This document shows, one piece after another, positions 893 to 4,613 of a DNA stretch of 64,000 bases. Position 1 is the first letter of the stretch; each line of letters starts with the position of its first letter. A program made the translations under genes and the position numbers. Source of the stretch: Crystallibacter degradans (GTDB lineage: Bacteria > Actinomycetota > Actinomycetes > Actinomycetales > Micrococcaceae); NCBI RefSeq assembly GCF_012952295.1, contig NZ_JABBCH010000003.1, forward strand, positions 248,001 to 312,000, written 5' to 3'. The notes under the pieces are model-generated. The model worked only from the letters and a program-made list of their open reading frames with translations. It had not been told where the DNA came from and made no database searches.

Positions 893-900
893 CTTTAGTC
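893..900. repeat. Target-site duplication, left copy
   Basis: The 8 bases CTTTAGTC directly abut the left inverted repeat. The same 8 bases abut the outer edge of the right inverted repeat at 2485-2492. This is direct evidence of a transpositional insertion with 8-bp staggered cleavage. Confidence 0.9.
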
Positions 901-924
901 TGTGAATCGCAGCGGTAAATGGCG
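901..924 (+). repeat. Left terminal inverted repeat
   Basis: Matches the reverse complement of 2461-2484 at 23 of 24 positions; the one difference is G at 915 against C. The inner 17 bp (908-924, ending TAAATGGCG) form the unit that occurs twice at the right end, so they are probably a transposase-binding site. Confidence 0.88.
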
Positions 925-929
925 CACTT

Positions 930-1474
930 TTGTCAGAGATGTATGGCCGACTGAGCCCGCAGACCTGCCAAGCCGGGCTGGTCTTGCGGTGTACGGCCTG
1001 ATGCAGCGCCAGTGCTGTCTGCTCGGCCGTCGGTGCTCCGGTGAAGAGGGGTGTAGCTGGCGACGGCGCGGGAGTAGTCATCGAGCACAATGGTGAGCCA
1101 GGGCCGCACGGGGTTGCCGCCCTTGTCGACGACCATGATGTCGAGGAGGGTGTGGTCCGCCTGCCACTGCTCGTTCGGACGGGAGGCTGCACGGCGGAAC
1201 ACCAACTCGAACCTGTCCCGGTATGCAGCGTCGCCTTCCTGTGCGAGCGTGATCAGTCCTGGATCGATCGCCGTGACTACGGCTCGGACGCTGGAGTAGC
1301 TCGGTGCCGGCAGGTCCCGGTCCCGGGCGATGTCTCCGACCCGCCGGCAGATGAAGGCCATGGTCGGCGCTGGCCGGCGGAGGGCCAGCGCCTCGATCAC
1401 CTCGACGAGCTCGGCCGGGATCTTTTTGCCCAGGGGTGTTTCATAAACGGCCGTTAGCGGGCCACCGTTCCATT
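930..1474 (-). pseudogene. Mu/rve-type DDE transposase remnant
   Basis: Minus-strand reading from an in-frame stop near 1474 gives GKKIPAELVEVIEALALRRPAP, then a recognisable rve core with WQADHTLLDIMVVD (first catalytic Asp) and a PWLTIVLDDYSRAVASYTP stretch. Around 1041-1047 the frame shifts: the family continues in another frame as LFTGAPTAEQTALALHQAVHRKTSPAWQVCG and then stops matching near 960. The N-terminal DNA-binding part, the second Asp, the Glu and the Mu C-terminal domain are missing. At least two lesions plus truncation make it inactive. Relatives in actinobacteria are usually followed by a TniB-like ATPase gene, which is absent here. Confidence 0.8.
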
Positions 1475-1553
1475 ACGTAGAGGGCGCATCCCCATCGACC
1501 ACAACCTCCGAGGGACTGATGTTGCGCGTCGCAACTCCTGAGACGATCTAAAG

Positions 1554-2411
1554 ATGACTACTTGCTATCCCCACACCCGCATCGCGGCCGGTCGCCGACA
1601 CTCGGTAGGCGTTACCGCGCAGGGTTCGGTGCTAACCGCGGGCATCCCGAAAGCGGAGGAACGGCGCGTCGAGGGCTGGAATAGCATCGTCGCGGTGGCG
1701 GCTGGAAACGTGCACACAGCATCGAACACCGGGCGCTCTCACACGGTTGGACTGCGCGAGGACGGCACGGTGCTCGCGACCGGCTGGAACAACGAGGGGC
1801 AGTGCGACGTCGACGAATGGACAGACGTCGTGAGCATCGCCGCTGGTTGGCGACGCACGCTCGCAGTCATCGCAAACGGTACAGCCCGTGCGGCTGGTCG
1901 ACGGAACGAAGGAGCCAGCGACATTGAAGGTTGGAACGAACTGGTGGCCGTTGCGGCGGGAGACTGGCACTCCATAGGGCTTCGGGCGGATGGCACAGCA
2001 GTGGCTGCGGGAAACAATCGCAGGGGCCAATGCGAGGTGGCCGGATGGCGCGACCTGCGGGCGGTGGCCGCGGGCTACCTGCATACGGTCGCCCTCACCA
2101 GAGACGGACGAGTGATTGTGGCCGGAGACCGAGCGTCCTGGGTCGAAGAAGTGTCTGCGTGGCGTGACGTTGTAGCCGTGTCAGCAGGCAGTTATCACAC
2201 GGTTGCGGTGGTCGCTGGGGGCCAGGTGCGCGCGGCCGGCGACAACAGTCGCGGCCAATGCGATGTTGCATCGTGGCGTGACGTCGTGGCGGTTGCGGCT
2301 GGTTCCACTCACACGCTAGGCCTTCGCTCCGATGGGAGCGTTTTGGCGACCGGTAACAGCGATGACGGCCAATGCGACACTGTGAGCTGGTACCTCTCCT
2401 CAACCGACTAA
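1554..2411 (+). CDS. RCC1-like seven-repeat protein (transposon cargo)
   Basis: 285 aa built almost entirely of RCC1-like repeats of the form W-x-x-VVAVAAG-x-x-HTVGLR-x-DG-x-VLATG-x-N-x-x-GQCDV. The repeat tryptophans lie at residues 42, 89, 127, 165, 203, 241 and 279, so the last five spacings are exactly 38. The first spacing is 47 because of a 9-residue insertion after NVHT. With the partial N-terminal unit this makes seven units, as expected for a beta-propeller. There is no signal peptide, membrane segment or enzymatic domain. Such propellers usually bind proteins; the partner is unknown. It is the only intact gene in the insertion element. No clear Shine-Dalgarno sequence precedes the ATG. 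Confidence 0.85.
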   Translation: MTTCYPHTRIAAGRRHSVGVTAQGSVLTAGIPKAEERRVEGWNSIVAVAAGNVHTASNTGRSHTVGLREDGTVLATGWNNEGQCDVDEWTDVVSIAAGWRRTLAVIANGTARAAGRRNEGASDIEGWNELVAVAAGDWHSIGLRADGTAVAAGNNRRGQCEVAGWRDLRAVAAGYLHTVALTRDGRVIVAGDRASWVEEVSAWRDVVAVSAGSYHTVAVVAGGQVRAAGDNSRGQCDVASWRDVVAVAAGSTHTLGLRSDGSVLATGNSDDGQCDTVSWYLSSTD

Positions 2412-2436
2412 CGAGCGGCTTAGGCGCGGCGCGGGA

Positions 2437-2453
2437 CGCCATTTAGCGCCGCA
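2437..2453 (-). repeat. Internal copy of the transposon end motif
   Basis: On the minus strand this reads GCGGCGCTAAATGGCG, nearly the same as the unit in the terminal repeat and offset from it by 24 bp in the same orientation. Two tandem end-binding sites on one side are typical of Mu/Tn7/Tn552-like elements. The left end shows only one clear copy. Confidence 0.7.
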
Positions 2454-2460
2454 GATAAGC

Positions 2461-2484
2461 CGCCATTTAGCGCTGCGATTCACA
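2461..2484 (-). repeat. Right terminal inverted repeat
   Basis: Inverted partner of 901-924, identical at 23 of 24 positions, directly followed by the target duplication. Confidence 0.88.
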
Positions 2485-2492
2485 CTTTAGTC
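2485..2492. repeat. Target-site duplication, right copy
   Basis: CTTTAGTC, identical to 893-900. It contains the TAA stop codon (minus strand, 2487-2489) of the 68-codon gene, so the duplication kept that gene whole. Confidence 0.9.
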
Positions 2493-2891: not shown

Positions 2892-4613
2892 ATGTTCGAG
2901 TCAATCGTTCCGGCGGAGATGGATCCGGTGAAGCCGGTCCCCGGTGATCCGGGTGCTGTACTGGTCCGGGCCGCGATCCTGGAACTGGCGAACATGGACC
3001 AGGACGTCGCCGAGGGGGTGCGGATCGACCGGATCACCGCACTGGAGGAACTTAAAGCCGCCGCGGCTGCCGCGCAGGCGCGCGAGACGGAAGCGTTTGC
3101 TGCTTCCCGCCGGGAAACCCGGGCAGCGGCCGGGGTCGCGGCGGAGAAGCGGAGCCGGGGCCTGGCCAAGGAGATCGGCCTGGCACGCAAGGACTCCCCG
3201 AACCGGGGCGGTAAGCACCTGGGCATGGCCACCACGCTGATCAGGGAAATGCCGCACACGTATAAGGCGTTGGCGGAGGGCCGGCTGAACGAGTGGCGGG
3301 CGACCATCCTGGTCCGCGAAACCGCGTGCCTGGGCGTGGAAGACCGGGCCCGCGTCGACCGGGAATTGTGTGCTGATCCGAAAACACTGCGCGGCTGCGG
3401 GGACAAGCGGATCGGGGCCATGGCGAAGCAGGCCGCGCTGCGGCTGGACCCACTGTCGGTGGTCCGTAGGGCCGCGAAAGCCGAAACCGAACGCCACGTC
3501 TCCTGCCGTCCCGCGCCGGACACCATGGCCCAGGTGTCCTGCCTGCTGCCGGTGGTGCAGGGCGTGGCCGTCCACGCGGCCCTGGCCAAGGAAGCCGACC
3601 GGCTCAAGGCGCAGGGCGATGAACGCGGCCGGGGCCAGCTCATGGCCGACATCCTCGTCGAACGCGTCACCGGCCAACCAGCCGAGAATCCCGCAAAAAT
3701 CGAGGTGCAGCTGGTCATGACCGACCGCACCCTGTTCCAAGGCGACTCCGAGCCTGCCCGTCTGGCCGGGTACGGCATCGTCCCCGCCCAATGGGCCCGC
3801 GACCTGCTCCACACCGGCGACACCGACACCGAGAACGGGAACGGGAACGCTGGCAAGGACGCCTCCGCCGCCGGTAGCCCGATGAAGGGCGCCGCTGGGA
3901 ACGGCGGCACAGATCATCCTGCGGTCGGCAATCCGATAAACGGCGCCGAGGAAGACACGATCGTTACCCGCGCAACGGATGCCGGCGCTGGGGACGGTGC
4001 TGCCGGCTCCGGCCCGCCAGACACAGCCGAACCCATACCGGCCAACGATGCAGGTGCCGACACCGCAGACACCGGAACCACCGAAGCCACCGGTACGCCA
4101 ACAGGGCCACCAGGTTCGGAGCGAACAGCCTCCGGAAACGCGATCGATGAGTCCGAGGTGGAAGTCTGGGTGCGCCGACTGTACACCGCGCCGGGCACCG
4201 GACAACTGCTCGGCGCGGATTCGCGGGCGCGGTTGATGCCGGCCGGGATGCAACGCATGATCCAGGCCAGGGACCAGCTCTGCCGCACGCCGTGGTGCGA
4301 CGCACCGATCCGCCACCACGACCACGTCGTGCCCTGGCGCGACGCCGGGGCGACCAGCGAGCTCAACGGGCAAGGGCTATGTGAAGCATGTAACCTGGCG
4401 AAGGAAACCGACGGCTGGCACGCCCGAAGGATCCCCGGTCCACGCCACACCGTCGAAACGACGACCCCGACCGGGCACACCTACCGCTCGACCGCGCCAG
4501 CCCTGCCCGGCACGCCACCGGCGACGGAGCAGGCGGACGAGACACTGGAGCCGTTGTCAGTCTTCGAGCAGGCCCTGGGCCGCATCGACTTCATCTACCG
4601 CCAAGCAGCCTGA
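2892..4613 (+). CDS. DUF222 domain / HNH endonuclease family protein
   Basis: 573 aa. Residues 1-300 match the DUF222 family (EGVRIDRITALEELKAA, then GLAKEIGLARKDSPNRGGKHL and RLNEWRATILVRETACL). A low-complexity Ala/Gly/Asp/Thr-rich linker follows at about 316-420. The C-terminal HNH-like domain has CRTPWCDAPIRHHDHVVPW and GQGLCEACNLAKE, giving two Cys pairs and the HDH core. These proteins occur in many copies in Arthrobacter and mycobacteria, and their role is not established. The frame is open upstream to 2508, but a leaderless promoter points to 2892 and the extension lacks family similarity. Confidence 0.85.
   Translation: MFESIVPAEMDPVKPVPGDPGAVLVRAAILELANMDQDVAEGVRIDRITALEELKAAAAAAQARETEAFAASRRETRAAAGVAAEKRSRGLAKEIGLARKDSPNRGGKHLGMATTLIREMPHTYKALAEGRLNEWRATILVRETACLGVEDRARVDRELCADPKTLRGCGDKRIGAMAKQAALRLDPLSVVRRAAKAETERHVSCRPAPDTMAQVSCLLPVVQGVAVHAALAKEADRLKAQGDERGRGQLMADILVERVTGQPAENPAKIEVQLVMTDRTLFQGDSEPARLAGYGIVPAQWARDLLHTGDTDTENGNGNAGKDASAAGSPMKGAAGNGGTDHPAVGNPINGAEEDTIVTRATDAGAGDGAAGSGPPDTAEPIPANDAGADTADTGTTEATGTPTGPPGSERTASGNAIDESEVEVWVRRLYTAPGTGQLLGADSRARLMPAGMQRMIQARDQLCRTPWCDAPIRHHDHVVPWRDAGATSELNGQGLCEACNLAKETDGWHARRIPGPRHTVETTTPTGHTYRSTAPALPGTPPATEQADETLEPLSVFEQALGRIDFIYRQAA

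Follow-up and report, generated by a model that had tools for sequence, protein, structure and literature searches.

Does the short stretch of Crystallibacter degradans DNA that holds one intact RCC1-type propeller gene between transposon-like ends represent a true mobile element, and if so, of which kind, how did it lose its transposition genes, and what does its passenger do? The locus lies in the 64-kb window (the whole stretch of DNA that was analysed, from genome G000), for which an earlier note had proposed a non-autonomous transposon, recently moved by a transposase supplied in trans and carrying a possible mobile effector. As set out below, the element is real, recently inserted, and now non-autonomous, and it very probably derives by deletion from a Tn552-like transposon that belongs to the ISArsp9/ISArsp14 group.

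Boundaries and empty site of the insertion

The element occupies positions 901–2484 (1,584 bp). It is bounded by 24-bp inverted ends with a single mismatch between them (23/24) and is flanked by perfect 8-bp direct repeats, all as previously described; each outer end is followed inward by a second repeat (Table 1).

Table 1. Features of the element and its immediate flanks (positions in the window).
Position	Strand	Feature	Remarks
893..900		Left copy of the target duplication, CTTTAGTC (8 bp)	Single in the empty site of G007
901..924	+	Left inverted end	Equivalent to the end on the tniB side of intact relatives
925..948	+	Second, weaker end repeat, left	Putative inner transposase site
961..1430	-	tniA remnant	About residues 63–220 of 485; frameshifted about 1048–1049
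1461..2484	+	Module common with G001	97.3 % over 1,024 bp
1554..2411	+	Gene for a seven-bladed propeller of RCC1/BLIP-II type	285 aa; intact ORF
2437..2460	-	Second end repeat, right	17/24 like the outer one
2461..2484	-	Right inverted end	Cargo side
2485..2492		Right copy of the target duplication, CTTTAGTC (8 bp)	

Could such an arrangement arise from chance repeats, with no transposon involved? The 64-kb window contains 24,260 pairs of identical 8-mers with a spacing of 300–10,000 bp. Of all these, only the CTTTAGTC pair encloses inverted ends of at least 17/24 (it has 23), the next best being three other pairs at 16/24. The end sequence furthermore recurs across genomes of the family (see below), and the empty site of the same-genus relative G007 refutes the chance reading, which we therefore reject with virtually no residual doubt. 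In G007, the alignment of the left flank extends up to G007:C4:249570, and that of the right flank begins at G007:C4:249563 (96 % and 94 % identical to the flanks of the element), such that the flanks meet with an 8-bp overlap and the 8 bp are present there once, reading CTTTAGTC letter for letter. Two further relatives of the same genus, G001 and G003, are likewise uninterrupted at this site, but their target bases have changed. The comparison of empty sites in close strains, which had been suggested previously, thus identifies the direct repeats as a true target duplication and shows that the insertion is real and postdates the split from G007. To the right of the element (window 2893–4613) lies a gene that we take to be DUF222/HNH 13E12-like; further copies of its start are scattered over the genomes G000, G001, G003, and G007.

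Relationship to described transposons

The designation as a transposon was borne out and can be extended, as the ends proved to be those of a described group. ISArsp9 and ISArsp14 of Antarctic Arthrobacter are assigned to the ISfinder class ISNCY and encode a resolvase, a transposase, an ATP-binding protein, and passengers, according to the accessible part of the source (PMC6305408). The left end of ISArsp14 (pA2H2) printed there contains the left end of the present element whole, the two being identical after the first C of the printed sequence (PMC6305408). While the accessible text prints the ISArsp14 repeat as 7 bp (PMC6305408), we read the duplication in pA2H2 as 9 bp. ISArsp14 and ISArsp9 (pA58H2) are 17.5 and 13 kb long with intact transposition genes and 11–12 passengers, as far as the accessible descriptions go, whereas the present element has 1.6 kb, one passenger, and a broken transposase. 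ISArsp14 and ISBli29 also appear as large ISNCY elements with passengers in the available part of a second report (PMC10045372).

Allowing for up to two mismatches, the end sequence was found in 50 of 295 family genomes, compared to none among the matches listed for a reversed-pattern control. In G168, 6.9 kb lie between two such ends, with genes for a resolvase, for a DDE transposase of 485 aa that contains rve and Mu-transpos_C domains, and for an ATPase of the AAA type; a 9-bp duplication flanks the element. Full-length relatives with these ends and an intact transposase, for which a search had been proposed, consequently exist, and their gene order is resolvase–tniA–tniB. A scan for paired ends with duplications gave 11 rows out of 241 pairs, one of which was dropped as doubtful (L044 5518–7396, left end with 9 mismatches); L001, being the window itself, was not counted. 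Altogether, 13 elements were delimited, comprising 11 distinct ones with ends and duplication, ISArsp14, and a degenerate one in Flavimobilis (L094), which is counted with reserve (its ends deviate from a loose pattern at 5 and 4 positions). The duplication amounts to 8 bp in five elements (window, L136, L137, L146, L150) and 9 bp in seven (L009, L041, L044, L133, L141, L144, L201), and matches at 8 of 9 positions in Flavimobilis. When the compared flanks of the 11 distinct elements were shifted 15, 20, or 25 bp outward, no duplications were seen. With its 8 bp, the window copy falls within the 8–9 bp of the ISArsp9/ISArsp14 group.

Tn552 of staphylococci agrees with the intact relatives in gene order. 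Its transposase shares 44 % identity over 85 % with that of the intact relative L041, which shows both the p480-type transposase and the Tn552 gene order; the window has a remnant only. Since the duplications of Tn552 are 6 or 10 bp in the available part of the source (PMC3276174), in contrast to the 8 bp found here, the element is termed Tn552-like only. Tn552 is further described there with inverted repeats of about 120 bp and bla passengers (PMC3276174). Tn5053/Tn402 share TniA/TniB-type machinery and short ends with the present group, and res-site hunting with relatives of the element, judging by the accessible text (PMC7765201). They have tniQ and 5-bp duplications (PMC7765201, in part). 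No 5-bp duplication occurs in the element or its relatives; as to tniQ, the space from tniB to the end of L041 is too small for it, and the annotation of L201 shows none. Plasmid genes annotated as tniA are about 28 % identical to the group transposase, and its nearest solved structures by sequence are TnsB proteins. A plain IS481/ISL3 element was considered and rejected, with the intact transposase scoring below the NCBIfam cut-offs for IS481, IS3, and IS21 and a TniB gene following it. The kind of element is thus already known; its reduced form and the RCC1 passenger are the new part.

Seven resolvase queries over the 13 delimited elements revealed a foreign serine resolvase gene 90–119 bp from one end in seven (L009, L041, L136, L141, L144, L146, L201). 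Insertion beside resolvase genes is a habit of Tn552 (PMC3276174) and Tn5053, according to the available portions of the literature. The other six, window included, lack an adjacent resolvase, although L137 has one 2.95 kb off. With the same queries, no resolvase gene was found in the window, and the copy there does not follow the habit of res-site hunters. This target, as well as the left inner repeat with just 11/24 likeness to the outer left end, counts against the favored reading as a deletion derivative.

Several other loci deserve mention. The genome of the window contains a second element of the group (G000:C49, L009 5996–9007), which carries genes for a resolvase, a TetR regulator, and a FabF/KasA-like ketosynthase and lies 111 bp from another resolvase gene. 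Two group ends just 167 bp apart form a MITE-like structure in G199 (L220 1639–1805), without matching duplication. In G164, a 9.2-kb element directly adjoins a sequence (L044 7140–7259) similar to the end that is printed for Tn6516, a transposon of the Tn3 family.

Loss of the transposition genes

The sole transposase gene is truncated and frameshifted, in agreement with the first description. Starting from 1430 on the minus strand, the remnant matches residues 63–189 of the 485-aa relative with 80 %, and continues in another frame after about 1048. Similarity at the DNA level, which links 961–1422 to the middle of the G168 tniA, stops at 961; the protein match down to 911 therefore runs into the end of the element and is unreliable there. 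Because the left end of the element matches the tniB-side end of the G168 element and 961–1422 corresponds to mid-tniA, tniB and the later part of tniA were lost between 948 and 961. On the other side of the remnant, the first 62 tniA codons and the resolvase are missing. In sum, tniB, the resolvase, and roughly two thirds of tniA are absent, which renders the element non-autonomous as had been supposed, while both ends and the intact passenger gene are kept. With the resolvase–transposase–ATPase core of the ISArsp9/ISArsp14 group reduced to this tniA remnant, the element counts as a deletion derivative instead of a full member. An intact tniA is absent in four of the 13 delimited elements (window, L009, L044, L094), which represents no frequency because many loci were chosen for having tniA; in L150, tniA aligned in two pieces.

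The ancestor would have had the layout end–RCC1–resolvase–tniA–tniB–end. TniA and the ATPase TniB presumably bound the tandem repeats on either side of the element and may have joined the ends to an ordinary intergenic (non-res) target, thereby duplicating 8 bp. At least two deletions would have removed the transposition genes, either before or after insertion, and movement would now be possible only with TniA and TniB supplied from elsewhere.

The order of deletion and insertion is the point at which the earlier note went too far: it had taken a perfect duplication next to a dead transposase to suggest a recent move in trans, but decay after insertion fits these observations as well. If the transposition genes had already been lost, TniA and TniB would have come from another copy that has since disappeared, a scenario we consider conceivable at slightly less than even confidence. 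Both ends are intact with their inner repeats, and the clean 9-bp duplication of L009, which shows no tniA/tniB match, demonstrates that transposase-less forms with clean duplications occur, even in this very genome. Moreover, a transposase-less Tn552 flanked by 10-bp repeats is a published precedent (PMC3276174, available part). However, no further copy that shares these internal deletions came to light, which counts against proven movement of the deleted form. Apart from the remnant itself, which appears as two pieces, the transposase matches in the own genome are limited to a homologue with 31 % identity on C35 and another match on C47 that is short and weak; a close intact transposase was hence not found in this draft of 124 contigs, in which a copy may have been missed. 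The distant tniA-like gene on C35 (G000:C35:41567–42718, L198; 588-aa open frame) probably belongs to another transposon.

Conversely, a complete element may have inserted and only then lost the resolvase, tniB, and most of tniA, for which our confidence likewise stays just below the halfway mark. Such decay in place is simpler and needs no helper, the remnant is little decayed (127 open codons and one frameshift), and the G001 region shows that deletions do happen at such elements. On the other hand, at least two deletions would be required, each of which spared the ends, the duplication, and the passenger. Under either order, the element is best explained as a deletion derivative of the ISArsp9/ISArsp14 group.

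The RCC1-type passenger

The cargo gene had been called intact, and its reading frame is indeed uninterrupted. The 285-aa product contains seven RCC1_2 stretches, and its structure model (mean pLDDT 90.9) displays seven groups of three strands, which together correspond to the repeats and the seven-bladed fold of RCC1/BLIP-II propellers. BLIP-II is a secreted inhibitor of class A beta-lactamase. It shares the RCC1 repeats and seven blades with the passenger and ranks first in Foldseek (28–29 % identity), yet it is absent from the sequence matches. By phmmer, only eukaryotic RCC1 relatives were retrieved at E <0.001, with UVR8 and other eukaryotic RCC1 proteins as best solved relatives, a discrepancy that weighs against the preferred explanation. 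No signal sequence was apparent by inspection. Values of dN/dS are 0.35 to G001 (18 codon differences) and 0.165, 0.138, and 0.140 to three others. We infer a predicted cytoplasmic binding protein under purifying selection, which would be a passenger and no part of the transposition machinery. An NTGR insertion in the second blade (residues 58–61) is invariant in 14 of 14 aligned RCC1 proteins and constitutes a candidate binding site.

Other copies of the cargo, for which a search had also been proposed, could be traced in part. The module common with G001 sits at another place with other flanking bases, where it takes the place of a portion of a region that G003 retains, but it has neither a recognisable left end nor a duplication, which again does not favor the deletion-derivative reading. 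Related RCC1 genes were found in 20 of 295 family genomes, and a species collection contributed 20 loci (some records being the same genomes). Their neighbours vary, except in four Arthrobacter genomes and the pair G095/G178, and no neighbours are shared beyond a few close relatives. Paired ends of the group surround an RCC1 gene in only one of 40 scanned loci, namely in Flavimobilis, where an in-frame stop at codon 13 interrupts the gene and likewise speaks against the best explanation. The view of RCC1 as an unusual cargo thus holds for its place within a transposon, but not for the RCC1 proteins themselves; no report of RCC1 genes as transposon passengers was found in the open PMC literature. 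In G214, two RCC1 genes of the family lie about 21 kb apart (L165, L166). Two candidate associations were discarded: in G166, RCC1 and tniA are about 12 kb apart without convincing ends, and in Cryobacterium (L107), RCC1 is separated by 4–8 kb from an end, which points away from it, and from pieces of tniA.

Might the RCC1 gene drive the spread of the element, as an active mobile effector or as a defence gene? The gene is patchy with changing neighbours and under purifying selection. In a tree, the window and G001 copies form one branch while Flavimobilis groups with Sanguibacter, and the two captures therefore look independent. Nevertheless, we regard this role as improbable. Besides the single locus with paired ends and its stop codon, genomes with RCC1 and tniA overlap about as expected (5 of 20 observed vs. 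3.9, with tniA in 58 of 295), which gives no sign of a general link, and PADLOC yielded no model match. The proposal of a mobile effector, also considering the lack of an apparent signal sequence and of neighbours shared beyond a few close relatives, was accordingly not upheld. Similarly improbable is the broader idea that RCC1/BLIP-II-type genes are roaming intracellular binders in actinobacteria, repeatedly captured by Tn552-like elements and kept as sole passenger for the benefit of host or element; if true, the propeller could, for example, block some protein that belongs to a phage or to a competing mobile element.

The deletion derivative links a small insertion in a chromosome with large passenger-carrying transposons that form a widespread group, and its empty site shows how much reduced a form can stand behind a perfect duplication. 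The ISArsp9/ISArsp14 group itself gains a longer duplication than printed and a res-hunting habit, while the RCC1 passenger represents a conserved bacterial propeller and a simple gene to test.
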